The notes beneath the pieces are model-generated. The model saw only the letters and a list, made by a program, of their open reading frames with translations. It did no database searches and was not told the DNA's origin. Positions 1-17,604 of a stretch of 53,601 nt of DNA are shown one piece after another; the first letter of the stretch is position 1; every line of letters begins with the position of its first letter. This DNA comes from Planctomycetota bacterium (GTDB lineage Bacteria; Planctomycetota; Phycisphaerae; Tepidisphaerales; Tepidisphaeraceae), in the NCBI GenBank assembly GCA_038746835.1, contig JBCDKH010000005.1, positions 1 to 53,601 of the forward strand, written 5' to 3'. The position numbers and the translations under genes were made by a program.

Positions 1-30
1 AGGGGCATCCCGCCCGCGACGCTCCCCGTG

Positions 31-92
31 GCACGATCTTTAGATCGTGCGTCCGCAAACCCGAACCCCGACACGATCTGAAGATCGTGCCA
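31..92. repeat. Pair of short hairpin repeats
   Basis: Two near-identical perfect-stem hairpins lie 21 bases apart. The first (31-50) is GCACGATCT, a two-base loop, then AGATCGTGC. The second (72-89) is CACGATCT, loop GA, AGATCGTG. They have different loops but the same stem, which suggests a repeated intergenic element rather than a chance palindrome. No T-tract follows either, so they do not look like intrinsic terminators. The rest of 93-278 shows nothing recognisable. Confidence 0.6.
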
Positions 93-278
93 CAGTTAGG
101 TCGCGACGATGAAGGCCGGTTGCGGCGGGCAAGGGTAGGGGTGGGGGTGGAGACGATGCCGCAGGTCGGCCGATCGCTTTCTATCGCTGCTGCGGGACCG
201 ATCTCCGCCCCGCTCGTCGCCGATCGACGGTCACCGTCGATTGGTACCCGTGTCGAGCGTCGGGAATGAATATGGGTT

Positions 279-503
279 GTGTCCCCATCCGGCCACGCCT
301 CAGCGGACGAGTACCAGTTCCTCCGCGACCTCGACACCACGCCCGCAACCCGTCGCGGCGGCGCGGCCGACAAGCTGCGCAACCACCTCGCCCCCCAAGC
401 AATGGCCCAGAAGAACCACGCCGTTTTCGGACTGACTGGCGCAAAGTCTGTGTCCGGCCCCACCAAACGGTTTGTTTCCGGCGCCCGCCGGATCAGCGGG
501 TGA
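279..503 (+). pseudogene. Possible gene remnant, unrecognised
   Basis: A 74-codon open frame whose central part (about residues 9-45, containing DEYQFLRDLDTT and KLRNHLAPQ) shows the strong G/C third-position bias of real genes in this window. The frame then runs into the 3' end of the convergent gene. I recognise no family and no start signal. It could be a decayed 5' end of a longer gene, or simply an open stretch in GC-rich DNA. The convergent gene at 493-906 is much better supported. Confidence 0.2.
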
Positions 504-906
504 TCGTGACCTTGTTGGACGATCCGCCGACCTGGGTCGTGACATTGCCACGGCCGCGGACGTCGGCGTGTTGCCGGACCGCGCCCGCGGCAAGCTCCGG
601 CGCGACCTCCGCCAGCAGGCCTTGAAGCTCTTTGGCGAGGTCGGGGTCGGCCTTGAGGCGTTTGGTCAACTTGCCGCGGAGGATGTCCCAGTGCTCATCG
701 GCGTCGGGCTCGGCTTCGGCGTCGGTGACGACGTTGGCGTCGCTGCCGGTGAAGCGGCTCTTGAGCCAGACCCAGACCCGTGCGGCCCCGCCCGCGACGG
801 CGTCGACGGCGGCGTTGCCCGCCCGATCGGCCAGGGCTTCGGCCGCTTCGCCGGCTTCGGTCTGGAGAAGGTCGATCGTCTGCTGGGCAAGCTCGGTGGG
901 TTCCAT
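493..906 (-). CDS. Small helical protein with C-terminal amyloid-type motif (putative Bell-like effector)
   Basis: A 137-residue protein starting at the ATG (MEPTELAQQ). Residues 1-55 are Ala-rich amphipathic helix with an aromatic stretch RVWVWLKSRF. Residues 58-71 form an acidic linker. Residues 72-108 are helical, with KLTKRLKADPDLAKEL, a pattern I associate with small NLR-linked effector-like proteins of actinobacteria and cyanobacteria. The last 20 residues are RGRGNVTTQVGGSSNKV plus TITR. This tail matches the N-terminal motif of the STAND ATPase encoded 38 bp upstream on the same strand. In known bacterial amyloid-signalling pairs the effector carries the motif C-terminally and the NLR N-terminally, exactly as here. 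A membrane-acting, HeLo/Bell-like death effector is inferred; the fold is not shown by sequence alone. Confidence 0.75.
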   Translation of the reverse strand: MEPTELAQQTIDLLQTEAGEAAEALADRAGNAAVDAVAGGAARVWVWLKSRFTGSDANVVTDAEAEPDADEHWDILRGKLTKRLKADPDLAKELQGLLAEVAPELAAGAVRQHADVRGRGNVTTQVGGSSNKVTITR

Positions 907-944
907 GGTGAGGCCTCGTCGTGATCCGTTTGAAGGTTTTGGAG

Positions 945-3299
945 TCAGTCGTCGCCCTCGTAGCCGAGCAGCTTCGCCGCCTCGGTCAACAGGGCAACAT
1001 CCGGTTCGGTGCCGGCCGCTTCGGCGGCTTCCACGTAGTCCCGACACAGTGCAGCGAGCAGCGACGCGAACGCCGCAGTGTTCCTGCGGGCAAGCGGGAG
1101 GAGGCATTGCATTCCCTCGTGCAAGTCGGCCGCGGCTTCTCCGGGTCGCTCCAGTGCGACGAGTACCTGGGACTTCGCCCCGAGCGACGACGCGAGGTTT
1201 GGCGTGAAGGCGTCGGGCCGCGCTGCCGCCAGCGTCCGGCGGAGACCGACCGACTCTTCGGCAGCCTTCAACGCCTCCTCCCGACGGCCCACGTCGGACA
1301 GGCGATTAGCGAGGTTGTTGAGCGACGACGCCAGGTCCGGCGTGAAGGCGTCGGGCCGCGCTGCCGCCAGCGTCCGGTAGAGACCGACCGACTCCTCGGC
1401 AGCCTCCAACGCCTCCTCCCGACGGCCCACGTCGGACAGGAGGTTAGCGAGGTTGTTGAGCGACAACGCCAAGTCCGGCGTGAAGGCGTCGGGCCGCGCT
1501 GCCGCCAGCGTCCGGTAGAGACCGACGGCCTCCTCGGCAGCCTTCAACGCCTCCTCCCGACGGCCCACGTCGGACAGGCGATTAGCGAGGTTGTTGAGCG
1601 ACGACGCCAGGTCCGGCGTGAAGGCGTCAGGATCGGAACGCACCAGCAGGCGATCAAGTTCAACCGTCTCATCCGCCGCGGCAAGGGCTTCTTCGCGCCG
1701 GCCGAGCGCGGACAGGCGGATGGCGAGATTGTTGACAGCGACCGACAAGGATCGCGTGGACCCTTCGTCCTTTGCTTGAGCTTGCCATGGTCTTAGCCGG
1801 GTAACCAGTCGCTCGTTCACACTTGCCGCCGCGTCGCGGAGGCTGAGGGTCTGTTTGGCGTGCTGGTCGAGCAGTTGTTGAATTGAGAAGAGGAGGCCGA
1901 TGTTGCCGGCGTCCGCGTGCTCGACCAGGCCCGCCAGCCATCGAAGGGCCGTTTCGGGGGCGACGCCGTGCTTGGACGCCTCTTCGATGCCGATGAAATT
2001 CTGGGCGATGCGGATGATGGCCGCGACGACGGCCTCCTCGTGGCCTTCGAGGACGCGGAGGACTGTGGCGGAGCCATCCGCCTGAGCGTTGCGTGACGCG
2101 AGAACATGGAGAACGAGGGCTTCGCCGATTAGGTCAGGCAGGACCGGGGCGGTGCCGCCGTCGGGGCGCGGCAGGGCCAGGGCGGCTTGGTCGGCGAGGG
2201 CTGCAGGCCCATTCGGGTGCGTTCGTCGCAGGGCATCGCACTCCCGCTCAACGACGGCGACGGCTTCTTGACGTGAAAGGCCTCCTGCGAGCGTGGAGCA
2301 CGCCGCCATGTGGCCGAGAAAAGAGGCAGTGGAGCCGAGAGGGCCATCGTCGGCGTAACGGGCGACTCGGGCGAGCTCGCGCTTAGCGAGTTCGAGCGCC
2401 AAGTCAGGCCGACTCATCGCCAGCGTGTCGAGAAGCGGAAGCTGCCTGGCGGTCGCGAGCAACGCGGCCATCATCAGCGGCAGCGGCTCGGACCAGCCGG
2501 GGCGGGCCAGGCGCTCGGTAAAGGTCGCGTCGTCCGGCGGTGGCAGAACCGGGGCGGTGACTCGGAGCAAGTCGGCCGCGGCGGTGGCGGTCTGTTCCAG
2601 GATGGACCGCTGGGCAGCCGTGCCTTCGAGCCGTTCGAGTTGCAGCGGCTCAAGGGGGCGGAACAGGTCGGCTGCGGGCGTGTCTGATGACGAAAACGAA
2701 CGGAGCGTCTGGAGCCAACCGCCGTCGGTCTCTGCCTCACGCTCGATCAGGATCAAGCGGAGCGGCGGGAGGTCCCGTCTCGGATGATCGGCGAGGTCGG
2801 TGACCCACGTCCGCAGCGGATCGAGTGCCGCAGCCGCGTAGTCGACGACGACGAGTGTGGGTCGTTGCCAGCCCCACGTCGATAGGCTCTGCTGGTGGAC
2901 GAATCGCTGCATCTCCCGGCCTTTGACGAAACCGGCGTGCCAAGCGTCTTGCTCTTCGCCCGCCGGCAGCGACGCGATGAGGTCGAGGGCCAGACGCGTC
3001 TTGCCCGAGCCGGCTCGGCCGCTGATGGTCCGAATGGCGATCGGGCAGTCGTCGTGCAGCCACTGCTTCAGATCGGCCATGACGCTGTCACGTCCGACCA
3101 GATCAATCGTCCGTCGGTACGCCTCGAGCAGTTGCAACTCGGTCGCGGGCGGAGCCGATCTGCCTGCTTGGTACGTTGTCAGGTGCAGGCTCGGGACGCC
3201 CGGAACGACCGTGTTGCCGTCGCCGTGGATCTGGACGACGACGTTGTCGTGCCCGACCACGCGGCTTGCCTGAATGTTTCGATCGGTGGTCCCCGCCAC
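945..3299 (-). CDS. STAND/NLR-like ATPase with TPR repeats and N-terminal amyloid-type motif
   Basis: About 784 residues from the GTG at 3299; a TTG at 3350 would add a Cys-rich leader (MPCDSFCIACRC) that looks unlikely, and neither start has a clear ribosome site. Numbering from the TTG, residues 31-49 carry VVGHDNVVVQIHGDGNTVV. Next come a STAND-type lead-in (LVGRDSVMADLKQWL), Walker A GRAGSGKT (111-118) and Walker B TLVVVDY (165-171), then a helical region, then five TPR-like units of 46 residues (about 550-745) with NNLANRLSDVGRREEAL cores. This is the sensor/oligomerising architecture of NLR-type STAND proteins: nucleotide switch in the middle, superhelical sensor at the C-terminus, signalling motif at the N-terminus. 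The small motif-bearing protein follows 38 bp downstream, presumably co-transcribed. An anti-phage or conflict role is inferred from family architecture. Confidence 0.85.
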   Translation of the reverse strand: MAGTTDRNIQASRVVGHDNVVVQIHGDGNTVVPGVPSLHLTTYQAGRSAPPATELQLLEAYRRTIDLVGRDSVMADLKQWLHDDCPIAIRTISGRAGSGKTRLALDLIASLPAGEEQDAWHAGFVKGREMQRFVHQQSLSTWGWQRPTLVVVDYAAAALDPLRTWVTDLADHPRRDLPPLRLILIEREAETDGGWLQTLRSFSSSDTPAADLFRPLEPLQLERLEGTAAQRSILEQTATAAADLLRVTAPVLPPPDDATFTERLARPGWSEPLPLMMAALLATARQLPLLDTLAMSRPDLALELAKRELARVARYADDGPLGSTASFLGHMAACSTLAGGLSRQEAVAVVERECDALRRTHPNGPAALADQAALALPRPDGGTAPVLPDLIGEALVLHVLASRNAQADGSATVLRVLEGHEEAVVAAIIRIAQNFIGIEEASKHGVAPETALRWLAGLVEHADAGNIGLLFSIQQLLDQHAKQTLSLRDAAASVNERLVTRLRPWQAQAKDEGSTRSLSVAVNNLAIRLSALGRREEALAAADETVELDRLLVRSDPDAFTPDLASSLNNLANRLSDVGRREEALKAAEEAVGLYRTLAAARPDAFTPDLALSLNNLANLLSDVGRREEALEAAEESVGLYRTLAAARPDAFTPDLASSLNNLANRLSDVGRREEALKAAEESVGLRRTLAAARPDAFTPNLASSLGAKSQVLVALERPGEAAADLHEGMQCLLPLARRNTAAFASLLAALCRDYVEAAEAAGTEPDVALLTEAAKLLGYEGDD
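1201..1752 (-). repeat. Tandem 138-bp coding repeats (TPR units)
   Basis: Inside the STAND gene, the block beginning GGCGTGAAGGCGTCGGGCC recurs at 1201, 1339, 1477 and (diverged) 1615, a constant period of 138 bp, or 46 codons. The first three units differ at only a few positions, including synonymous ones. This implies recent tandem duplication or gene conversion in the sensor part of the protein. Confidence 0.9.
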
Positions 3300-3470
3300 G
3301 GCGGAATGGTAGAAGCACCTACACGCGATGCAAAATGAATCGCAAGGCAATCGGAACGGAAATCGGGATTGCCAAGCTGGGTGGGCGGACGCCAGGGCGA
3401 CCGCAGTGCGGATCGGCCCGTTCAGCCGAGTCAGCCGTCGGATCGGGTCGACTACGACGACGTAGCCCCG

Positions 3471-3559
3471 TCACCTTCAAGCTCCCGCTACCGCCGGATA
3501 CGCCCGACACGAACGACACCCGCACCACCTCTGATACCCCGACGAAGATCGCGGCGTGA
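3471..3559 (+). pseudogene. Possible 3' remnant of the 37.97-kb gene family
   Basis: An open frame ending DTPTKIAA stop at 3559 is followed four bases later by the dispersed repeat beginning AGCAGAAGTTGTTAG. The intact gene at 37973-38686 ends QETPVRLAA stop and is followed by the same repeat. The stretch from about 3471 therefore looks like a decayed copy of that gene's 3' end. Similarity is confined to the last residues and the position relative to the repeat, so this is weak on its own. The region 3300-3470 shows nothing else. Confidence 0.25.
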
Positions 3560-3563
3560 GTGA

Positions 3564-3690
3564 AGCAGAAGTTGTTAGGGCCTAGGGGTTAGGTCGGAGG
3601 CCGAGGCAACCAGCTCCGGCTGGGCCCTAACCGCTAACAGCTAATCGCTTCTCTACTAGGCTCTAAGCTCTAACAACTAGCAACTCGCAC
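3564..3690. repeat. Dispersed fold-back repeat, copy 1
   Basis: An intergenic element built from GTTAG, CTAGG and GGCCTAA words, imperfectly self-complementary about a centre near 3615 (AGCTCCGGCT). It starts GAAGTTGTTAGGGCCTAG and ends CTAACAACTAGCAACTCGC. The segment just after it (GTGGCTTTTGGGCC) also follows copy 5, so the conserved unit extends to about 3710. Other copies are at about 15711, 25744, 34732 and 38693. Confidence 0.85.
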
Positions 3691-3792
3691 GGCGGCGTGG
3701 CTTTTGGGCCCGCCGCCGTTTGCATGCGCGGGTCGTGAAGCTTTGAAAACGTCGACTTTGAATGGGGGTGTTGGTATCCTTCGGCTAACGCC

Positions 3793-4230
3793 ATGGGTGG
3801 TGCACGCACGAGTGTTCGAGCCGGATTGTCGCGATTGGCGACGGAGGTGTGCGTCGTGGCTGCGATGGCGTTTGTGCTGGTGCCGGCGATGACGGCTGGG
3901 CACCATGCGGTGGCTCACGCGGCCAAGGTGGGGGAAGTGGAGGAGGTGGGGAAGGTGGGGACGTCGCGGGGGCATCACGACTGTTCAGGGCATCATGGGG
4001 TGCCGCACAAGCACGCCCCTGCCGAGCCCACGCGGTCGGACGAGTCGGGCGAGTGCCAGACGTGTTCGCTGCTGGCCGTGTTGACGCAGTCGGCCGGGCC
4101 GGCGCCGGTCGCGGCGTTGCCAGCGGAGCCGGTGTTGGCGGCGGGCGAGGTCGAAGTGCTGGTCGCGGCACTGCTCGCGTTTGATCCGAACGAGTTGCCC
4201 GGATCGCCACGTGCGCCGCCGGTAGTTTAA
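3793..4230 (+). CDS. Small exported His/Cys-containing protein, DUF2946-like
   Basis: 145 residues from ATG. Residues 8-42 form a hydrophobic N-terminal segment (EVCVVAAMAFVLVPA) that could be a signal peptide or anchor. Residues 58-75 are His-rich (HHDCSGHHGVPHKH). A Cys pair follows in GECQTCSLL, and the C-terminus ends in Pro-rich PRAPP. This order resembles DUF2946-type small proteins, often linked to metal handling. The metal-binding idea rests on the His/Cys content only. A MerC-like gene lies 1.3 kb downstream. The start was chosen as the first ATG before the hydrophobic segment; there is no clear ribosome site. Confidence 0.6.
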   Translation: MGGARTSVRAGLSRLATEVCVVAAMAFVLVPAMTAGHHAVAHAAKVGEVEEVGKVGTSRGHHDCSGHHGVPHKHAPAEPTRSDESGECQTCSLLAVLTQSAGPAPVAALPAEPVLAAGEVEVLVAALLAFDPNELPGSPRAPPVV

Positions 4231-4238
4231 TGCGTTGA

Positions 4239-4287
4239 AGCCAGGGCGAAGCGGTGTCGCGTGGATGCGGACTGCCCGGCCCTGGCT
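4239..4287. other. Inverted repeat in the 4231-4534 intergenic stretch
   Basis: AGCCAGGGC at 4239-4247 pairs with GCCCTGGCT at 4279-4287 around a 31-base loop. There is no T-run, so a terminator is doubtful. The remaining bases up to the next start at 4535 stay open in one frame but lack a credible protein. I see no other signal there beyond a GGAG ribosome site at 4523. Confidence 0.35.
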
Positions 4288-4534
4288 GCCGTGGTCGCTG
4301 CGTGTCGCAAGGACCCTTCTGATCCATCTAGATCGAACAGGCACGCCGTCCCTCGGAATTGCGTGCCCGCGTCGGGCGGCCGGCTCTCCGTCGAGAACGG
4401 CCAGCCGTCAAGCATCCCGCCGAAGGCGAGGCCAGGTGCACCGTGCATCGCGGTGTTCCCTCGCGAATGAGCTCGCGTGTCGCCCGTCTCGGCCCTTCGC
4501 AACGTCTCTCTTCCACTCTTCCGGAGTCACAGAA

Positions 4535-5470
4535 GTGCATCAACGACATAAACCCCTGCTTGTCGCCGGCCTTGGGTCGGCACTCATCGCGAGCACTGCT
4601 TCGGCGGTGCCGCTGCTTGCCAGTGGGCAGGTGCTCATTCCCGGCGATCCGAGCATTCCGCCCGGCCAGCCGGGGCACGACGACACGCGCGAGAACTACA
4701 TCTTCGAAATCGACTCGGAGACCGGCATCGCTACGCCGATCAGCCCCGTCACGACCGGACTGCCCGCGGGTCTCGGTGCGACGCAGAGCACGCTCTACGG
4801 CTGGCAGAGCAACACGCTTCAGGTCGTCGATCCGTTTGCCGGCACCACCACGCCGGCCGGCCCGTCGACGCCGTTCAGTGCGACGGCGTTCGACGTCTCT
4901 GCTGGCGGCGTCGGCTTTGGCATGACGATCGGCGACGACCAGCTCTTCAGCGTCGACCTCGCGACCGGCAATGCGTCGGCCGTCGGTTCGGCTGGCCTGG
5001 TCAACGACGCCCTGGAGCTCGCTGGCGAGGTCGATCCGGACGCGTTCATCATCTCGCTCGGCAGTGTCGGCGACTTGCTCTACGGCATCGATCTCTCGAC
5101 CGACTCGCTGATCGAGATCGACCCGGCCGACGGCTCGGCCGACGTGATCGGTGCGCTCGGCAGCGTCGACCTGGTCGGCAACGGCATCTTCAGCGGTTAC
5201 GCCGGGCTGACGGGTGTCGATGAAAACGCCGACGGCGAGTTCGACGCGTTGTTCGGCGTCGTGAACTTCATCAACCCGGCTGGTCCGGAGGGCACGGTCC
5301 GCCTCGGCGGCATCGCCCGCTTCGACCTGACCGACGCCTCGTGGGACCTCGTCGGCCTGAACGAGCAGGTCATCTTCTTCGGTCTGGCCTCCGCCCCGAT
5401 TCCGGAGCCCACGTCGATGGCACTACTCGGACTGGCCAGTGCGGCATTGCTTCGCCGACGACGCGTTTAG
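4535..5470 (+). CDS. PEP-CTERM sorted protein, beta-propeller-like
   Basis: 311 residues from the GTG at 4535, with GGAG at 4523-4526 eight bases upstream. This start puts a signal peptide (HKPLLVAGLGSALIASTASA) at the N-terminus; the open frame upstream lacks protein character. The body has recurring short units with Asp-rich turns (YGWQSNTLQVVDPF, YGIDLSTDSLIEIDP), typical of a secreted beta-propeller. The C-terminus is APIPEPTSMALLGLAS followed by AALLRRRRV, the PEP-CTERM signal (PEP box, hydrophobic helix, Arg cluster) recognised by an exosortase. It is probably a surface or matrix protein. No exosortase is encoded in this window. Confidence 0.85.
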   Translation: MHQRHKPLLVAGLGSALIASTASAVPLLASGQVLIPGDPSIPPGQPGHDDTRENYIFEIDSETGIATPISPVTTGLPAGLGATQSTLYGWQSNTLQVVDPFAGTTTPAGPSTPFSATAFDVSAGGVGFGMTIGDDQLFSVDLATGNASAVGSAGLVNDALELAGEVDPDAFIISLGSVGDLLYGIDLSTDSLIEIDPADGSADVIGALGSVDLVGNGIFSGYAGLTGVDENADGEFDALFGVVNFINPAGPEGTVRLGGIARFDLTDASWDLVGLNEQVIFFGLASAPIPEPTSMALLGLASAALLRRRRV

Positions 5471-5530
5471 CGCTTATCCTCTGACCTGCTGCGGCACGAC
5501 CGCCGTGGCAGGTCTTTTGGCCACCCCTCC

Positions 5531-6097
5531 ATGACTCAATTCGGCTTGTCCATCTTTCAGCGAACCTCGTGGACCGACCTGCTTGGCGCAGGAGCGTCGA
5601 TGCTGTGTGCCGCGCACTGCCTTGCGACGCCGTTCGTGCTGCTCGCGCTGCCCACATGGGGCGCGACGTACACGCACCCGGCGATGCACTGGCTGCTGAC
5701 TGGCATTGCGGTGCCGCTGGGGCTGTGGGCGATGTTCCGTGGCTACTTGAGGCACCGTCGGTTCTTCGTGCCGCCGTTGATGCTGGCAGGACTCGTACTG
5801 GTCGTCGTCGCAACGGCCCAGCCGGCGCTGGCTAGCCCGGCAGAGGAGCCTGTCATCTCTGAGGCCACCCCGACCACGCAGCCTGCTGTGACGAGCAGCT
5901 GTGCGGCGTGCTGTCCGGCTCCGGTCGTCGTCGTGGACGAAAACGACGAGGTGACCATCGAAGAGCCCGCGGGCAGGCCTTGGCCGTTTTACGCGATGGT
6001 GGGTGGCGGGCTGCTGCTGGTCTTCGGTCACGGCTTCAACCTGGTGCCGTGTCGTGCACCGTGCTGTGCTCATCGCCGTGCCGGAGGTGATGTGTGA
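5531..6097 (+). CDS. MerC-domain membrane protein
   Basis: 188 residues with the motif DLLGAGASMLCAAHC near residue 17, the MerC-type membrane motif (small residues, then C-x3-C spaced as CAAHC). Further hydrophobic segments lie near residues 55-70 and 80-98. A Cys cluster (SSCAACCP) follows after a Thr/Pro linker, then a last TM segment and a Cys-rich end (VPCRAPCCAHR). MerC proteins are implicated in mercuric or other metal ion uptake; the substrate here is unknown. The stop overlaps the next gene's GTG start by four bases, so translational coupling with the DUF58 gene is likely. Confidence 0.7.
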   Translation: MTQFGLSIFQRTSWTDLLGAGASMLCAAHCLATPFVLLALPTWGATYTHPAMHWLLTGIAVPLGLWAMFRGYLRHRRFFVPPLMLAGLVLVVVATAQPALASPAEEPVISEATPTTQPAVTSSCAACCPAPVVVVDENDEVTIEEPAGRPWPFYAMVGGGLLLVFGHGFNLVPCRAPCCAHRRAGGDV

Positions 6098-7176
6098 GCG
6101 ACTCGGCGAAGAGGCTCATCCCGCTGCCACCGCCGAAGTGGCGGCTGCCCATCGCGCTCATAGCGGCCGCCGTGGTCGCGTTGGTCTGCGGCATCTTCGT
6201 TCACGCGAACGGCTACGTCTGGCTGGCGGCGACGCTGGTCGTGCTCGTCGTCGGAGCCGTCTGGCCGTGGGTCGCTCTCAAGACCGCGTCGGCGACGGTT
6301 ACCTTTGCTGCGGAACGTGGGCGCGAAGGCGACACGGCCGACGCACGGCTGCACGTCCGAAGCCGACTGCCCTGGAAGTCGATCGGCTTCCGGCTCGATG
6401 GCGAGGCCGATCTCGCTCGCGAGGTCTCCGTCGGCACGAACGATGTTCGCTGGACGCCCTCGCGATTCGGCCCGGTCGGCGACCGACTGACGCTCACCTG
6501 CGATCGGCCGTTCGGCCTGTGGACGGCGCGACGATCGGTCGACGTCCCTCGGTCGATGCTCGTCTGGCCGCGCACGCACAAGGTCGGCCAGGTCCCTGAC
6601 TGCGCCGGCCCGTCGGACGGCACCCACGGCGGACGCCGCGTCGGCATCGGTGGCGAGTTCTGCGGCGTGCGAGACTTCCGCGCCGGCGACCGGCTTCGCC
6701 TGGTTCATTGGGCCCAGACCGCACGCCAAGACCGACTCATGGTCCGCGAAACGCTCGCCGACGCGACGCCGAAGGTGCGCGTCGGGCTGTTGCTCGGGCA
6801 AGACAGTCACGTCGACTCTGCTGCGTTCGATCGTGCCGTCCGCGATGCGGCGTCCAAAGTCGAGGGCTGGACGCGTGCGGGCTCTGTTGTCGAGTTGGTG
6901 CTCGCCGAGCGGCGTATCGCCTGTCCTCCGAATGCCGTGCCGCGAATGGCGCTCGACGTGTTGGCGGCGTTGCGATACGACGATCTGCCCCAGGTTGCGG
7001 AACGTGTTTCGGTCGACGTCTTGGCATCCGCAACGAGCCGCGACCGTGAGGGAGCGGAGTCGGCGGAGCCGACATCAGTCGACGCACGAGACATCGCGTT
7101 CCGCGATTCCCCTTCTTCACGGTCGCGGCTCGTTGCGGAGTCAACCCTTGGATCGCGAGGTGCCCATGCCGCGTGA
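6094..7176 (+). CDS. DUF58 domain membrane protein
   Basis: 360 residues from a GTG overlapping the upstream stop. Two TM helices (about residues 17-38 and 41-62) are followed by a beta-rich region and the DUF58 signature GGEFCGVRDFRAGDRLRLVH with W and ARQ just after (about residues 188-215). DUF58 proteins accompany MoxR ATPases and transglutaminase-like proteins, both of which follow here. The last 45 or so residues (from about LASATSRDREG) are encoded by an inserted inverted-repeat element (7030-7136), so the natural C-terminus has been replaced. The gene overlaps the next start by 11 bases. Confidence 0.85.
   Translation: MSDSAKRLIPLPPPKWRLPIALIAAAVVALVCGIFVHANGYVWLAATLVVLVVGAVWPWVALKTASATVTFAAERGREGDTADARLHVRSRLPWKSIGFRLDGEADLAREVSVGTNDVRWTPSRFGPVGDRLTLTCDRPFGLWTARRSVDVPRSMLVWPRTHKVGQVPDCAGPSDGTHGGRRVGIGGEFCGVRDFRAGDRLRLVHWAQTARQDRLMVRETLADATPKVRVGLLLGQDSHVDSAAFDRAVRDAASKVEGWTRAGSVVELVLAERRIACPPNAVPRMALDVLAALRYDDLPQVAERVSVDVLASATSRDREGAESAEPTSVDARDIAFRDSPSSRSRLVAESTLGSRGAHAA
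7030..7136. repeat. Inverted-repeat element inserted in the 3' end of the DUF58 gene
   Basis: The left arm GCAACGAGCCGCGACCGTGA (7030-7049) is matched exactly by its reverse complement at 7117-7136, with partial pairing continuing nine bases inward. The interior holds two small hairpins, GTCGGCGGAGCCGAC and ATCGCGTTCCGCGAT. It looks like a MITE- or REP-type element. It is read through in frame by the DUF58 gene, adding about 35 foreign codons. Confidence 0.85.
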
Positions 7177-9364
7177 CGTGCTTGTTTGGCTCGCACTCGC
7201 CGTCGCGGTCATCGCGGTCGGACTTGCCGACTACGTCCTGGCGTCGTCGGTCGTGCTGGTCGTTGCGGCGGTGCTCGTCCGACTCGGCCTGACGCGGTTC
7301 GCCAAGCCGGTTAGCGCGACGGCGTGGGAGCGCATCGTCGCGGTCGTCGTGGTCGCCGGTCTCGGCTGGCGATTCGTCCAGGGCATGCCGCCGACCGAGT
7401 GGCTTGTCGTCGAGGGCATGCGGAACGCAGCGCTCGCCATGCTCGCTGTGCCGACATCTCGGAAGATCGGGCCGATCGCGATGGGCCTTGGCCTCGGGCT
7501 CGTCTTGGCGTGCAGCCTGCTCGGCGAGGGTGCGGGCGTTCTGGCGATGGCCGTGCTGTACGCGGTGCTCGGGGCGATCTGGCTGTCGCAGCGCGAACGC
7601 GAGTCGACGGCGACGCCGTGGGGCGCGGTCGCGGCAGTGGCGATCGTCGCTGGGACGGTCGGCCTGTTCGTCCACGGCAGCGTCCGTCTCGACGGCCTGT
7701 TCGCCGGGCTCGTCAACAGCTCCGGCGGTGACGGCGACGGGCACGAGCTGGCGCGATCTGGCATCGGTGACGGGCCAGACCAGATCGCCGGACCGACGGG
7801 CGACGCCGGCTTCGACCAGTCCGACTTCTTCTGCGAAACCGACGGACAGTGCCTCTATGATGCGTTCGTCGAAAACTACGGCCAGCCAACGGTCACGTCG
7901 CGCGTCGATCGCACCCAATGGCTCCGCCTGACCGAAGACCAGATCGGCGAGCACCGCGAGCAGGACCTCCGTGCCGGACGCTCGGAAGACAGTCCGCCAC
8001 GCCGGTTCTCGCTGCGACGGGATCGTCCTTCCCGCGAGGCTTCGCCCGAGGCCGTGCTGTGGGTCGAGGCGGATCGCGATCAGTTTCCGATCCGTCTGCC
8101 GATCCTCGCGTTCGACCACTACGAGCCGGGCGAAGGCCACTGGCACGAGGAGGCGGATGAGGAGGTCATGCGGGCGATGGACCACGCCGACGAGGACGGC
8201 TTCTTCCACCCCGTCGATCAGCCCGTCGGCAAGGTCTTCGGCCAAGAGCGTGAGGTGACGATTCGCACCGGCACGTACGACGCAAACATCCTGCCGCTGC
8301 CGAACGCGATGACCATGTTCCGCATGGGCCGGGTGACCAAGGCGGACGTGTTTGCCAGCGCCGCCGAGCCGATGCTGCGGATCAACCGGACCAGCGTCCC
8401 GCCCGGCAGCGTCTTCCGCGTCGGCTATCGACCACCCGTCCTCGATCAACTCGCAGCCGAGCCTCTGGCCCACGGCCAGGCCGACGACACGCATCACGAG
8501 ATCGCCGCGTCGCTCGCACAGCAATGGGCCGGCCACTTGCCACGCGGCTGGCAGCAGATCGACGCCGTTGTCTCTCGACTTCGCGACCACGCGGTGTTTG
8601 AGCAATCAGCAACACTTCGAGCGTTTGAGGCAGCACACGATCACGTGCACGCCTGCCCGGTCGAGACCTTCCTGCACGACACGCGTCGTGGCGATGCGCA
8701 CCTCTTCGCCTCGTCGACTGTCCTCATGCTCCGGAGCCTCGGCTACGACGCACGCCTCGCGGGCGGCTACTACATCGCGGCCGACGACCTCGACCATGCC
8801 ACCGGGCAAGCCGCGATCACGCGTGCACATGCCCACATCTGGCCGCAGGTCAGGCTCGAGCTCGAAGCCGGCTACGCGAGCAGCCGCGTCGATCACCAGC
8901 AGGGCATGGCCCGCGGCGGACAGTGGATCGACCTCGAACCGACGCCAGGCTTCTCCGTCGCCGACGGTGCCCCGACGTTCGCTCAACAGGCAACGATGAC
9001 GTGGTCGTCGCTCGTCGCCTGGGCCGGCCGCGAATGGCCGACGCTGCTGATCGTCGGCGTTGCCGGCGCGGGCATCATCGTGCTTCGGCATCGCATCGCC
9101 GATGTCGTCGACGTCCTCGTCTGGCGCATCCGGCCGACGGGCGATGACCGGACCTTCGTCATCCGAACCCTCGGCCTGCTCGATCGCCGCGCACGCCGAC
9201 GCGGCAGCCCACGGCCGGTCCACCAGTCGCACTCCTCGTGGCTCGACTCGCCCGACTTGTCACCGGTTGCCGATTGGGCGATGTTCTCGCCGACCGAGGC
9301 CGCGCCGCCGTCGCACGGCGTCGACCTGTTTCGCCGAGTCGGGTTCAAAGCCCACGCCCGCTGA
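7166..9364 (+). CDS. Transglutaminase-like (TgpA-type) membrane protein with altered catalytic triad
   Basis: 732 residues from the ATG at 7166. The N-terminus has five or six TM helices (residues 4-170), then a large soluble region, a transglutaminase-core-like segment (about residues 480-610) and one more TM (about 620-640). The core motif normally reads R-G-x-C-E-x-F-A-S. Here it is RRGDAHLFASSTVLMLRSLG, so the nucleophilic Cys is Ala (residue 511, codon GCG at 8696). The His motif is RAHAHIW and the DPTP motif is LEPTPG, so Asp is Glu. The protein therefore probably lacks transglutaminase or protease activity and may act as a scaffold. It is in the DUF58/MoxR gene group. Confidence 0.8.
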   Translation: MPRDVLVWLALAVAVIAVGLADYVLASSVVLVVAAVLVRLGLTRFAKPVSATAWERIVAVVVVAGLGWRFVQGMPPTEWLVVEGMRNAALAMLAVPTSRKIGPIAMGLGLGLVLACSLLGEGAGVLAMAVLYAVLGAIWLSQRERESTATPWGAVAAVAIVAGTVGLFVHGSVRLDGLFAGLVNSSGGDGDGHELARSGIGDGPDQIAGPTGDAGFDQSDFFCETDGQCLYDAFVENYGQPTVTSRVDRTQWLRLTEDQIGEHREQDLRAGRSEDSPPRRFSLRRDRPSREASPEAVLWVEADRDQFPIRLPILAFDHYEPGEGHWHEEADEEVMRAMDHADEDGFFHPVDQPVGKVFGQEREVTIRTGTYDANILPLPNAMTMFRMGRVTKADVFASAAEPMLRINRTSVPPGSVFRVGYRPPVLDQLAAEPLAHGQADDTHHEIAASLAQQWAGHLPRGWQQIDAVVSRLRDHAVFEQSATLRAFEAAHDHVHACPVETFLHDTRRGDAHLFASSTVLMLRSLGYDARLAGGYYIAADDLDHATGQAAITRAHAHIWPQVRLELEAGYASSRVDHQQGMARGGQWIDLEPTPGFSVADGAPTFAQQATMTWSSLVAWAGREWPTLLIVGVAGAGIIVLRHRIADVVDVLVWRIRPTGDDRTFVIRTLGLLDRRARRRGSPRPVHQSHSSWLDSPDLSPVADWAMFSPTEAAPPSHGVDLFRRVGFKAHAR

Positions 9365-9385
9365 TCCGACAACGCTCTCTTGCCG

Positions 9386-10330
9386 ATGACGCATCCGCCA
9401 CCCGAACCTGTCCAGTCCGTCGACACGGCTGCGCGCGTCACGGCGGTCCGCGATCGATTGACGAGCGCGTTGCTCGGCAAGGAAGACGTCGTCGATCACG
9501 TGCTCGCTTGCCTGCTCGCCCGGGCACACGTGCTGGTTGAAGACGTCCCCGGCCTTGGGAAGACGACGCTCGCCAAGGCTCTTGCCTCGGCCGTCGGCGG
9601 CACGTTCGGCAGGCTTCAGTGCACGCCCGACCTCTTGCCCGGCGACGTGACGGGCTTCAGCGTCTTCAACCAGAAGAACCGCGAGTTCGAGTTCCTGCCC
9701 GGGCCGGCGTTTTCGGACGTGCTGCTCGTCGACGAGATCAACCGCGCCACCCCGCGGACGCAGTCGGCCCTGCTTGAGGCGATGGCCGAGGGACAGGTGA
9801 CGGCCGACAACGTTCGCCGCGATCTGTCGCCGACATTCTTTGTCATTGCGACGCAGAACCCCGTCGAACACGCCGGTACGTACCCGCTGCCCGAGGCGCA
9901 GCTTGACCGCTTCGGCATGAAGCTCAGTGTCGGCTATCCGTCCGACGACCACGCGATGGCGATGCTCGCTGGAGCCGTCGGTGGGGAACGATCGAAGCTC
10001 GATCAGACGCCAATCCTTCACGACGACGAACTGCTCGGCCTGCAGCAGCACGTCTCGTCCATCGCCTGTGAAGAGCCGGTACGACGCTACCTCGTTCGCC
10101 TCGCGACAGCGACGCGTGATCACCCGCGTGTGACGCTCGGATTGAGCCCGCGCGGGTTACTTGTCTGGCAGCGACTCGCCCAGGCGAAAGCAACGCTCGT
10201 CGGCCGCGACTTCGTCACCGTTGACGACGTCCAACACGTCGCCCGCCCGTGCCTGCTCGTGCGACTCGGCGTCGCCGACGGCGACGCGGCACCGATCGTC
10301 GACGACCTGCTGACAAGCGTCGCGGTCTGA
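9386..10330 (+). CDS. MoxR-family AAA+ ATPase
   Basis: 314 residues. I chose the ATG at 9386 over the TTG two codons earlier. Walker A is PGLGKTTLAKALA (about residues 56-68). A MoxR-typical CTPDLLPGDVTG follows, then Walker B VLLVDEINRATPRTQSALLEAM, sensor 1 IATQNPVE, and sensor 2 GLSPRG. MoxR ATPases act as chaperones that remodel or insert cofactors into partner proteins, commonly with DUF58 and vWA proteins. Those partners are the two genes upstream, read in the same direction. The small gap (21 bp) supports one transcript. Confidence 0.95.
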   Translation: MTHPPPEPVQSVDTAARVTAVRDRLTSALLGKEDVVDHVLACLLARAHVLVEDVPGLGKTTLAKALASAVGGTFGRLQCTPDLLPGDVTGFSVFNQKNREFEFLPGPAFSDVLLVDEINRATPRTQSALLEAMAEGQVTADNVRRDLSPTFFVIATQNPVEHAGTYPLPEAQLDRFGMKLSVGYPSDDHAMAMLAGAVGGERSKLDQTPILHDDELLGLQQHVSSIACEEPVRRYLVRLATATRDHPRVTLGLSPRGLLVWQRLAQAKATLVGRDFVTVDDVQHVARPCLLVRLGVADGDAAPIVDDLLTSVAV

Positions 10331-10400
10331 CCACCTCGATCGGCCGGCGCATTTCCGCCTTCACGCTGATCGCACCTGCACTCCCGAATCTGATCACCTC

Positions 10401-11789
10401 ATGATGGTTGCCGGCACCTTTGTCCTTCGACTCGGCGAAGCCGTCATCGCGGCGGTGCCGGACCTGCTGGTCGGCGTGCTTCTGGCAGGCGTGCTCCGGC
10501 ACGTCGTCGGCGACGTGCGGCTACAACGCTGGTTCGCCAAGCCGTGGACGACGGCTCTGACCGCCATCGCTTGGCCGGTCGGTGCGGCTGGGATCTTGCC
10601 GATCGCGGTCGTGCTGCATCGTGCCGGTGTCCGTCCGGCGGCGGTGGTGGCGACGCTGTTTGTCGGCGGTGCAGTCGGGCCGTTGTCGATCGCATATCTG
10701 ATGGAACGGGCGTCGCCTTTGGCCGCTCTTGTGCTGGTCGCAATGCTCTTTGCGATTGCCGTCCTGCTGTTTGCCGTCGTTGCGAGAGTCGAGGGGCCAA
10801 CGACGGTGACCGGCGATGACGCTCCAGGTTTTCCGCCGGCGCTGGGCGAGGCCCGTCCGCTGCTGCGCGCGACGTGGTTGCCGCTGCTCATCGGGATCTT
10901 TGTGTTCGCGGGCGTGGCGTCGTTCCTGCCTGGCAGCTTCGTCGGCTACGTGATGGTCGAGCCATCGGCTGTCCACGCTGTGTCCGGCGTTGGCATGCCG
11001 CTCGTCTCGTTCTACCCGCAGAACGTCGCCGCCCTCTTCAGCGGCGAAGCGGCCGCCGGCGTCTATCGCGGGGCCGCCCTCGTGATGCTCGTCGGGGGCG
11101 GCGTGACGGTCGGCAGCGTCGTTCTGCTGTTCATGCTCGTCGGACGAAAAATTGCAACCGTGTCTCTCGCGACGGGGATCGTGCTGGTGCTGATCGCGTT
11201 CTTCGCCCTGCAGTTCGCGCCACCGCTGGTACCGGCGATCGACGAGGACTCCCACGCGTTCGACAGACTCTCGCAACCGCACAAACTGCTCGTCGGCGAC
11301 GCGGGGTTTGTCGAGAGCATCCTGATGCTCTGGGGACGCGCCCTGTCGGTCGGCAAAATCGTCGCCGCCGGCGTGTTGGTGTTGCTGATCGTGCTGCCGC
11401 GGATGGCGTCGCCGCGGAGCAAGCTCGCACCCGCGTGGATGCTCCGAACGCTCGGCATCGTCGGCGTTGTGACGTGGGTCGGCCTGACGCTCTACGTCTA
11501 CTTCCCGGCGCCGGCGGTCGCACTCGTTCAGATGCGGCACCCCGAAGGCGACCTCTCGTCAGCCCTCGGCCAGGGCGACGTCGAACAGGCACATGTCGCG
11601 CTCGATCGGATCGACCGACTCGCCACCCGCGGCCGGACTGGCGCGCTGCTTCGCCTCGACACGTCAGCCGCCGAAGAGCTCGCCGCAGTCAACGAGGCCG
11701 TCGCGTCGACGCGTACGAGTCTGCCGCCGACGCCCGAATATCGGGACGCGGTAGACGTCTTTGTGGCAGCACGCGACGCCCGCAACTGA
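10401..11789 (+). CDS. Multi-TM permease-like protein, unassigned
   Basis: 462 residues with about eight hydrophobic helices in the first 360 residues, then a soluble C-terminal tail of about 95 residues that is helical and acidic. The stretch WPVGAAGILPIAVVLHRAG followed by ATLFVGGAVGPLS resembles the core of UPF0718/DUF318-type permeases, but without their Cys residues, so the family call is tentative. It follows the MoxR gene by 70 bp on the same strand and could be the last member of that group. Starts at 10401 and 10404 are both ATG. Confidence 0.5.
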   Translation: MMVAGTFVLRLGEAVIAAVPDLLVGVLLAGVLRHVVGDVRLQRWFAKPWTTALTAIAWPVGAAGILPIAVVLHRAGVRPAAVVATLFVGGAVGPLSIAYLMERASPLAALVLVAMLFAIAVLLFAVVARVEGPTTVTGDDAPGFPPALGEARPLLRATWLPLLIGIFVFAGVASFLPGSFVGYVMVEPSAVHAVSGVGMPLVSFYPQNVAALFSGEAAAGVYRGAALVMLVGGGVTVGSVVLLFMLVGRKIATVSLATGIVLVLIAFFALQFAPPLVPAIDEDSHAFDRLSQPHKLLVGDAGFVESILMLWGRALSVGKIVAAGVLVLLIVLPRMASPRSKLAPAWMLRTLGIVGVVTWVGLTLYVYFPAPAVALVQMRHPEGDLSSALGQGDVEQAHVALDRIDRLATRGRTGALLRLDTSAAEELAAVNEAVASTRTSLPPTPEYRDAVDVFVAARDARN

Positions 11790-15798: not shown

Positions 15799-15843
15799 CG
15801 TCCTTTGCCCGCAACGGCCACCGCCGGTACCGTCACTCGTTGC

Positions 15844-17604
15844 ATGCCGGACGTGGATGACACTCCCGCCCCCACTCCGGCACCCGACTCGATCGATCGC
15901 ATCGGCCGGCTGTTCCACACCGTCTTCCCGATCCTCATCGCCATCGGCGCGACCGCGTCCACGGCCTACTGGAAGCTCGCCAACGCGCTCATCTCGCCCT
16001 TCAACTACGACGGCGATGCGGTGCAGCACGGCTTCTGGGCACAGCGGTCGTGGGGCGCGACGCTGCTCGAACACGACGTCTTTGCCCAGTTCTACGCCAG
16101 CGACGCGATGGCCCCGCCCGGCTACCGCTGGCTGATGCTCCTGCTCGGATCGCTCGGCGACATCCAGCTCATGGGCGAGCTGGCGATGATCGGCCTCATC
16201 GGCATCACCGCCGTCGTTCTCTTCCTGCTCGGCTGGCGTGCGTCCGGCTCACTCTGGGGCGGGGCCGTGCTGGTCGCGTTCCTCATGTGGTTCGCGATTC
16301 AGAACGAGCGGCCCTTCGGGTCGATCATCCTGCAGCGACACTTCGCGCTCGTCCTCCTGGCGGCCGGGCTCTACGGGCTGGTCAGCCGTCGCGTCTGGAT
16401 CGTCGGGCTCGCCATCCTCGGCTCGTCCCTCTTCTACCCGATCACGCTCGCCGTCCTCGGCATGACGGCCTTCGTGCACGAAGGCATTCGGCTCGCCGTC
16501 GACCGCAAGCTTCCACGCGGCTGGTGGATCGCATTACTCCTCGGGCTGGCCGCCGTCGGCGTGCTGGCGTCGCGCGACATCCCCGACGAGTACGGCCCAC
16601 GCGTCACCGCCGAGCAGGCCCGCACTATGCCGATCTTCCAGGACGGCGGCCGCAGCCAGTACTGGGTCGCGAACGAACGCGACTTCCTCTACCACCACCA
16701 CCGCACCGGCCTCGGCCACGACCCTGCCGAACTCTGCAAGGCCGCCCTCGTGCTGCTGCCGTTCGTGCTACTCGCGTGGCGATCCTCGTCGCCTGCCGCG
16801 TGGATCATGCTCGTCGTGAGCGTCTCGCTCTGGGGCATCGCCCACCTCGTGCCGTTCCACCTCTACCTGCCGAACCGCCACGTCCGCGTGCCCCTGCCGC
16901 TGGCCTACGCGACGCTCTTCGCCTCCATGGCCCCCGCAGCCGTCGCACGGTTGAACGATTTTGCCCGACGACGGCTTCCGTCGAATCGAGGCCAACTCCC
17001 ATGGCGAATTGCCACGGCCGTCGTCGTGCCGATCGCCCTGTCGTTCTACGCCGGCGAGCAGTTTCGCCCCGACGTGATCGAGCGTCGCAAGGAGGTCCGC
17101 CGGGTCCTGAAGCGTCCGCCCGAGCCGCCGCGTGTCGTCGAGGAGTACCTGCGCAACACCGCGCCTGACTTCCTCGTCGCCGGACACCCTGAAGAGATCC
17201 AGCACATCTCGCTGACCACCGGCCGGCCGACGCTGGTCAACCGCGAGACGCTCGTTCCCTACTACCTCGGCTTCTACGAGAGCGTCGCCCGCCCCCGCGC
17301 GAAGGACGCCCTCGACGCGTATCACGCCGGCGACTGGCCCACCTTCGACAGCATCCTCTCCGCCCACGCCGTCGACGCCTTCTACTTGGTCCACCACCCG
17401 CCTCAACCCCGGCGAAAGCCCCTGGAAGAACCCCTCGCCACGATGACGGAGGCCGCCATTGCCCGCCTCGGCGAGCTCGTGCCCGTCACAGTCGACCCAC
17501 CCGCCGACCGCATCCTCGCCCACGACCCCCACCGCCACATCACCCTAATCCGCGTTGGCGGCGCTACGAGCGCAGCGGTGTCATCGGCTCCACCGGCTGA
17601 TTGA
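15844..17604 (+). CDS. Multi-TM membrane protein, GT-C-like, paralog B
   Basis: 586 residues from the ATG at 15844 (MPDVDDTPAP). An upstream in-frame start at 15805 would only add a low-complexity leader. Like its neighbour it has about ten TM segments and the loop motif YDGDAVQHGFWAQRSW, then LQRHFALVLLAAGL, FYPITLAVLG and YLPNRHVRVPLPLA. The C-terminal soluble domain (about residues 440-586) contains LVAGHPEEIQHISLTTGRPT, parallel to LIAGHLKDVDGLPLETGRAA in paralog A. A role in polysaccharide or surface-glycan work is plausible but unproven. Bases 17605-17715 hold no recognisable feature. Confidence 0.6.
   Translation: MPDVDDTPAPTPAPDSIDRIGRLFHTVFPILIAIGATASTAYWKLANALISPFNYDGDAVQHGFWAQRSWGATLLEHDVFAQFYASDAMAPPGYRWLMLLLGSLGDIQLMGELAMIGLIGITAVVLFLLGWRASGSLWGGAVLVAFLMWFAIQNERPFGSIILQRHFALVLLAAGLYGLVSRRVWIVGLAILGSSLFYPITLAVLGMTAFVHEGIRLAVDRKLPRGWWIALLLGLAAVGVLASRDIPDEYGPRVTAEQARTMPIFQDGGRSQYWVANERDFLYHHHRTGLGHDPAELCKAALVLLPFVLLAWRSSSPAAWIMLVVSVSLWGIAHLVPFHLYLPNRHVRVPLPLAYATLFASMAPAAVARLNDFARRRLPSNRGQLPWRIATAVVVPIALSFYAGEQFRPDVIERRKEVRRVLKRPPEPPRVVEEYLRNTAPDFLVAGHPEEIQHISLTTGRPTLVNRETLVPYYLGFYESVARPRAKDALDAYHAGDWPTFDSILSAHAVDAFYLVHHPPQPRRKPLEEPLATMTEAAIARLGELVPVTVDPPADRILAHDPHRHITLIRVGGATSAAVSSAPPAD

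Follow-up and report, generated by a model that had tools for sequence, protein, structure and literature searches.

The accessible part of PMC3507681 describes Pseudomonas aeruginosa TgpA as a membrane protein whose transglutaminase (TG) domain lies in the periplasm, has the conserved triad and is active in vitro as a transglutaminase. Its gene (PA2873) is described, in the text available, as clustered with PA2874 and PA2875. Here we analysed a TgpA-type gene whose product lacks the catalytic Cys. It lies in a stretch of 53,601 nt, called the window below, which is the whole analysed part of contig JBCDKH010000005.1 (positions 1 to 53,601; assembly GCA_038746835.1) of a Planctomycetota bacterium. 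The Planctomycetota family to which it belongs is called psTgpA, a name coined here. PA2874 and PA2875 are presumably the DUF58 and MoxR genes, and genes of both types flank psTgpA in the window. To our knowledge, the function of MoxR-DUF58-TgpA operons is largely unsettled.

Catalytically dead TG folds have precedents in erythrocyte protein 4.2, where the fold has a structural use, and in Rad4/XPC, which is not a membrane protein. The latter acts in DNA repair and has lost catalysis while keeping the fold, as the title of a reference in PMC8195603 indicates. MoxR proteins together with von Willebrand factor A (vWA) proteins capture a client peptide and carry out ATP-driven remodelling, also in metal insertion (PMC7159879, available sections). 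Cells need SO_0444, a permease distantly related to one encoded in the psTgpA operon, to grow when stressed by zinc or copper, as stated in the accessible part of PMC3219624. Among open-licence full texts, we found no paper tying TgpA-like proteins and MoxR to zinc or Zur and no description of psTgpA. In PMC545781, the one such text in which MoxR, zinc, Zur and a permease occur together, MoxR is named a single time, among listed iron (Fur) sites.

We give about an even chance to the view that psTgpA is a dead TgpA paralogue acting as the third partner of the MoxR AAA+/DUF58 pair in an operon for metal homeostasis, which would be zinc-linked in several lineages.

Loss of the catalytic Cys in psTgpA

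The psTgpA gene of the window starts at ATG 7166, shares 11 bases with the end of the DUF58 gene and has a reading frame without internal stops. Transglut_core (PF01841) is the single Pfam domain of the protein and covers residues 492-592 (E 1.3e-9, 38.7 bits vs a cut-off of 23). The core reads TRRGDAHLFASS. Within its stretch RRGDAHLFASS, Ala511 stands in the column, Asp or Ala in psTgpA, to which a profile alignment assigned the Cys of the solved TgpA domain 6g49. Glu591, in LEPTPG, occupies the position of the catalytic Asp. Checked against active TgpA, the window protein thus keeps the TG fold and the His (His557) and lacks both Cys and Asp. An earlier note on this DNA, made from the sequence alone, had reported Ala at the nucleophile position and LEPTP in place of DPTP, and both observations were borne out.

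The protein is otherwise of full length with membrane helices, as that note had also described. An AlphaFold model, built with 15 sequences (mean predicted local distance difference test score 67.6), has N-terminal membrane helices at 3-170, a periplasmic part to about residue 600 and C-terminal helices. The periplasmic part matched TgpA (6g49/6g4h) in Foldseek with E 7.6e-9 and gave no other strong match. VIA aligned it to TgpA with Z 17.2 over about 228 residues (root-mean-square deviation 3.5); VIA rows below Z 8 were excluded as evidence. When the family profile was compared with PDB sequences, TgpA was the sole match at E up to 1 (3e-17).

An independent genome, G016 (genomes and loci carry our own G and L handles), encodes a psTgpA with 57% identity to that of the window over 709 aa and an identical RRGDAHLFASS. 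A sequencing error at Ala511 is therefore very unlikely. The two genes diverge by 0.33, 0.25 and 0.51 at codon positions 1, 2 and 3, which shows constraint at the protein level.

We searched 61 relatives, 397 genomes of the class and 392 genomes of the phylum with the full-length protein or a hidden Markov model, so that a missing Cys was not required. Among the relatives, seven genomes had long psTgpA matches; elsewhere the matches were short and limited to the core, and most of them hit ordinary TgpA. The long form was found in 15/397 genomes of the class and 24/392 of the phylum. A further scan of genome contigs used a peptide pattern that excluded Cys, which biases its counts; it gave 91 relatives. 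We retained 80 of them, and almost all have planctomycete record titles; the cultured species Singulisphaera acidiphila and Blastopirellula marina were among the hits. These 80 loci partly overlap with 15 neighbourhoods fetched from the class genomes. No psTgpA copy was confirmed on viral contigs. For column counts, removal of duplicate cores reduced 117 sequences to 108, the window included; L040, an N-terminal fragment without the core, was left out.

None of the 108 sequences has Cys in the Cys column, which holds Asp in 93, Ala in 13, Ser in one and Glu in one; the lack of Cys in the window is thus no chance event. The next column is Tyr in 102. The His557 column is His in 107/107 aligned sequences, and the catalytic Asp column is Glu in 91/107 and Asp in 16. 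The earlier note had allowed for a nearby Cys that fills the site; no conserved alternative Cys was found in the 108 sequences, and the sole column with Cys in more than one quarter of them was 492 (34/108). The active-type TgpA of psTgpA genomes reads GHCEYFA or similar. We built a tree of 107 psTgpA and 33 active-type TgpA (33 of 38 active-type candidates had enough columns) with the Cys column masked. The two types fell on opposite sides of one branch with length 0.67 and support 0.817. The tree needed one change between Cys and non-Cys and about eight changes to or from Ala. The single split and the Asp majority imply an old common loss, with Asp as the usual replacement and the window Ala as a later change. 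The usual state of the site is thus Asp-His-Glu. As for conservation of Ala in related planctomycetes, which the earlier note had proposed to check, the family state is Asp and Ala recurs in several lineages.

Nine of the 15 psTgpA genomes of the class also carry a readable active-type TgpA with Cys (G000, G005, G009, G011, G016, G235, G289, G295 and G298). G045 has two psTgpA copies (L046 and L047). At 304-538 aa, the reading frames that hold the other Transglut_core matches in G045 and in G087 (L052) are too short to encode a typical TgpA, and the Cys-less form may be the sole TgpA-type protein of these two genomes. Judged from sequence, the whole family lacks the nucleophile and retains the fold, the His, an acidic residue and the membrane topology, and the status of psTgpA as a pseudoenzyme is well supported. 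The suggestion of a pseudoenzyme maintained in a conserved DUF58/MoxR group has stood up, as the relatives also lack the Cys and the partners are conserved.

The operon and its metal-related genes

The conserved gene order, read first in the 15 fetched neighbourhoods and then in the 80 loci, is DUF58, psTgpA, MoxR, often a lipoprotein with a His motif, and then a permease. Positions 6094-11789 of the window match this order, with DUF58 on the 5′ side and MoxR and the permease on the 3′ side (Table 1). In tblastn searches over the 80 loci, DUF58 was found in 71, MoxR in 73 and the permease in 64. Where the flanking DNA was long enough (for MoxR and permease, 3.5 kb or more on the 3′ side), the frequencies were 67/68, 53/57 and 52/57, respectively; the last value comes from a looser count (68 in total, vs 64 by tblastn) that added cluster membership. 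The DEINR-type Walker B motif is kept in 71/73 MoxR open reading frames. The DUF58 protein of the window has Leu233 in a vWA-like strand where Asp stands in 62/72 homologues, so this partner is altered too in the window lineage. A lipoprotein-like protein lies between MoxR and the permease in 23/80 loci, and many copies have, by eye, a His motif near LEHHVPAHKP. The copy of this small family at L140:5381-5947 (22 other loci have one) had no Pfam or NCBIfam match.

The permease is related to ArsP_1 and SO_0444, and relatives in L045 (41.9 bits) and L161 (75.5 bits) exceed the ArsP_1 cut-off of 32.3. At E<=1e-16, the permease was found in six of the seven psTgpA genomes among the 61 relatives (G000, G005, G011, G016, G045 and G053; G009 had no such match) and in 0/54 relatives without psTgpA. 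Weaker matches occurred in 14 other genomes. In G011, the permease lies 70 kb from psTgpA. As the two co-occur even when unlinked, their association is more than adjacency.

Several neighbours relate to metals. A MerC-type gene lies near the psTgpA cluster in the window, in G016 and in others. In the window, a small His/Cys-bearing DUF2946-like gene probably belongs to this metal gene group too. In G016, a protein end with similar CxTC and PPVV features (by eye) precedes MerC, and L053 has another DUF2946-like gene, also below the cut-off. The zinc chaperone GTPase ZigA is encoded beside psTgpA, above the cut-off in L052, L178, L190 and L209 and just below it in L157. A Fur-family gene lies just 5′ of DUF58 in L050, L053 and L055; Pfam confirmed that of L053 and also one in L173. 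Copies of a conserved protein with the motif MNQQCWxWGCD are encoded near ZigA or MerC genes and Zur-like boxes (L046:10298-10942, L052:12327-13055 and L055:11616-12239); the L046 copy, without Pfam or NCBIfam match, is possibly a new metal protein.

A Zur-like box, a palindrome near TGCAAATGCATTTGCA, was present at the psTgpA cluster in G045, G087, G121, G289, G295 and G339; G241 had only a site with three mismatches. We scanned these seven genomes for the pattern TGCRAATGCATTYGCA with at most one mismatch. Five of the seven had sites, 17 in total, vs three for a reversed control. Ten sites were in psTgpA clusters, two directly 5′ of znuA and five elsewhere. Because the pattern was derived from psTgpA clusters, only the znuA sites are independent evidence. 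At both (G087:C64 and G121:C69), znuA, identified by Pfam, is followed by genes read from their sequence as an ABC ATPase and a membrane protein. In family f1, to which the window belongs, a palindrome near TTTTGACTAATCAAAA lies close to some ZnuA-type genes (L113:2510, L116:2412 and L119:541). We take it to resemble a manganese-type box, and it is perhaps the site of a manganese-type regulator. From these neighbours and boxes we infer a metal role of the psTgpA operon.

Table 1. Features of the window (positions counted from its first nucleotide)
Feature	Positions	Strand	Remark
204-aa protein and TPR-rich NTPase-like protein	493-1107 and 945-3350	-	
Small His/Cys-bearing DUF2946-like protein	3793-4230	+	PF11162 21.5 bits, just below cut-off 23.7
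PEP-CTERM protein, flanked by the DUF2946-like and MerC genes	4235-5470	+	NCBIfam PEP-CTERM motif only
MerC-family membrane protein, directly 5′ of DUF58	5531-6097	+	PF03203 5e-19, 69.3 bits, cut-off 27.6
DUF58 protein, partner gene	6094-7176	+	PF01882 23.7 bits vs cut-off 23.4
psTgpA, TgpA-type membrane protein with Cys-less TG domain	7166-9364	+	732 aa
Codon gcg, Ala511 at the catalytic Cys position	8696-8698	+	family consensus Asp
Codon cac, His557	8834-8836	+	invariant in psTgpA family
Codon gaa, Glu591 of LEPTPG at the catalytic Asp position	8936-8938	+	
MoxR AAA+ ATPase, partner gene	9380-10330	+	PF07726 2.6e-58
Membrane permease, ArsP_1 / SO_0444-related	10401-11789	+	PF03773 16.6 bits, below cut-off 32.3
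Tandem pair of large membrane proteins of similar appearance, 551 and 599 aa	14059-15714 and 15805-17604	+	

Other genes of the window are also listed in Table 1. The TPR-rich NTPase-like protein matches TPR_10 (1.2e-23) and weakly STAND/AAA_16; the adjoining 204-aa protein has no Pfam match. Both contain short GNxV/GNVT-type stretches, and they are possibly a conflict or signalling pair. The 551-aa membrane protein has no Pfam match. In G016, no PEP-CTERM protein separates MerC from the DUF2946-like end, which lies a short way 5′ of it. ZepA (PMC10957091, accessible part) was considered for the PEP-CTERM neighbours and rejected, as NCBIfam calls those of L047 and L053 choice-of-anchor M proteins.

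Possible roles of psTgpA

In our preferred reading, psTgpA would have no enzymatic activity and would serve an AAA+ machine, active in the homeostasis of zinc or another metal, as its periplasmic receptor or docking subunit. The periplasmic TG-fold domain would no longer form thioesters, and its old cleft would bind a ligand, most likely the His-motif lipoprotein or the metal-loaded permease, or alternatively a metal ion in Asp-His-Glu members. The membrane helices might then relay the ligand state to DUF58 and MoxR in the cytosol; by analogy with MoxR/vWA pairs in metal insertion, these two could use ATP to remodel or gate the permease. The earlier note had suggested a binder of peptides or glycan. 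This found no support; the neighbourhood points to zinc or metal handling, a link absent from that note.

Several observations weigh against our reading. The direction of transport is ambiguous: the Zur-like box suggests zinc shortage, while kinship with SO_0444 suggests efflux. In the accessible part of PMC3219624, SO_0444 is a Cu/Zn efflux protein, opposite in direction to a Zur uptake response. The window permease scores under the Pfam ArsP_1 cut-off (16.6 vs 32.3 bits), and no scanned permease reached the SO_0444 NCBIfam cut-off of 300 (window 23.4, best 81.6). Of the box sites, 5/17 are neither in psTgpA clusters nor at znuA. The box of the relatives was not found in family f1, and within the initial 20 kb of the window there is none with up to four mismatches; two with five mismatches lie in 1-10500. 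Upstream of DUF58, there was no phylum-wide dyad (the best occurred in 3/66 regions, and shuffles reached 2-3). The zinc link of the window is therefore borrowed from relatives, where alone the Zur-like box, the Fur-family gene and ZigA were seen beside the cluster, and its own metal link rests on gene content, namely MerC, the permease and the DUF2946-like CxTC protein. Moreover, the window lineage departs from the family-typical His at 310 and 364 and Tyr at 512.

It is also conceivable, though unlikely, that the triad Cys-His-Asp was converted to an Asp-His-Glu site binding a divalent metal, so that psTgpA itself would be a periplasmic metal sensor or carrier. The prevalence of Asp, His and Glu in the three columns and the zinc-linked neighbour genes agree with such a site. 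However, Ala replaces Asp in 13/108 sequences, including the window, and does so through about eight changes on the tree. A more elaborate version seems quite improbable to us. Here the site would have been converted once, at the base of the phylum-wide family, and the receptor would couple the MoxR/DUF58 motor to the permease and the His-motif lipoprotein in an ATP-driven acquisition or trafficking of zinc or a related metal, of an undescribed kind; the window lineage would later have lost the Asp and kept docking alone.

The constancy of DUF58 and MoxR, the most regular neighbours, and the lack of the box in most lineages could mean that psTgpA is a general MoxR/DUF58 scaffold whose operon lies near metal genes by chance. 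We consider this likewise unlikely, given that the permease is present in 52/57 loci with enough flank, that it co-occurs with psTgpA at the genome level, even unlinked in G011, and that the box also occurs at znuA operons.

A Cys-free stand-in for TgpA, which would keep the MoxR-DUF58-TgpA machine in a structural envelope role when metal poisons thiols, is rather doubtful. P. aeruginosa TgpA is critical for viability (PMC3507681, available part), and a wall hydrolase of Vibrio cholerae that is induced through Zur under zinc starvation offers a precedent, as far as the accessible text of PMC6381278 goes. The presence of active-type TgpA in 9/15 psTgpA genomes also fits. However, the specific partners of psTgpA are a permease and a lipoprotein rather than wall enzymes, and the cluster showed no conserved wall gene.

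A cryptic enzyme with Asp, Ser or another residue as nucleophile is very improbable: the His and the acid are kept and Asp is the commonest replacement, but the nucleophile position varies among Asp, Ala, Ser and Glu, and there is no conserved Cys elsewhere. A pseudogene, a recent loss or the sequencing error that the earlier note had allowed for might be suspected because just one residue is changed and the genome is a draft, and can practically be dismissed given the same residue in G016, the frame without stops, the constrained codon positions and the family-wide lack of Cys.

Comparison with known systems

A branch that has lost catalysis and kept the whole machine shows that fold and partnership are important in their own right. 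Should the metal link be true, the MoxR/DUF58 pair would gain a function open to testing, namely to move or insert metal, and Planctomycetota a new zinc-response module. psTgpA would then be a natural experiment in which the structural roles of TgpA can be told apart from its enzymatic ones.

TgpA (PA2873, 6g49/6g4h) resembles psTgpA in its membrane helices with a periplasmic TG domain, its fold and its gene cluster. psTgpA differs by the lack of Cys and by an operon that also encodes a permease and frequently a lipoprotein. CoxD-CoxE, MoxR-MoxC/L and Mg chelatase are similar in that a MoxR AAA+ protein works with a vWA-type cochaperone on metal sites; in contrast to the psTgpA operon, no TG-fold membrane partner or permease is described for these insertion systems in the available sections of PMC7159879. 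SO_0444 is a distant relative of the psTgpA operon permease, but it adjoins a ZntR-type regulator and not MoxR (PMC3219624, accessible part), and the permeases here score below its cut-off. Erythrocyte protein 4.2 (7uzs) was a weak structural match (VIA Z 5.1) and was not used as evidence; it is an animal multidomain protein of the ankyrin complex without MoxR partners. Rad4/XPC differs from psTgpA in serving DNA repair and in not being a membrane protein. Dead TG folds as such are thus already known. psTgpA fails as a member of the enzyme family, and it is new as a Cys-less TgpA-fold partner of MoxR and DUF58.

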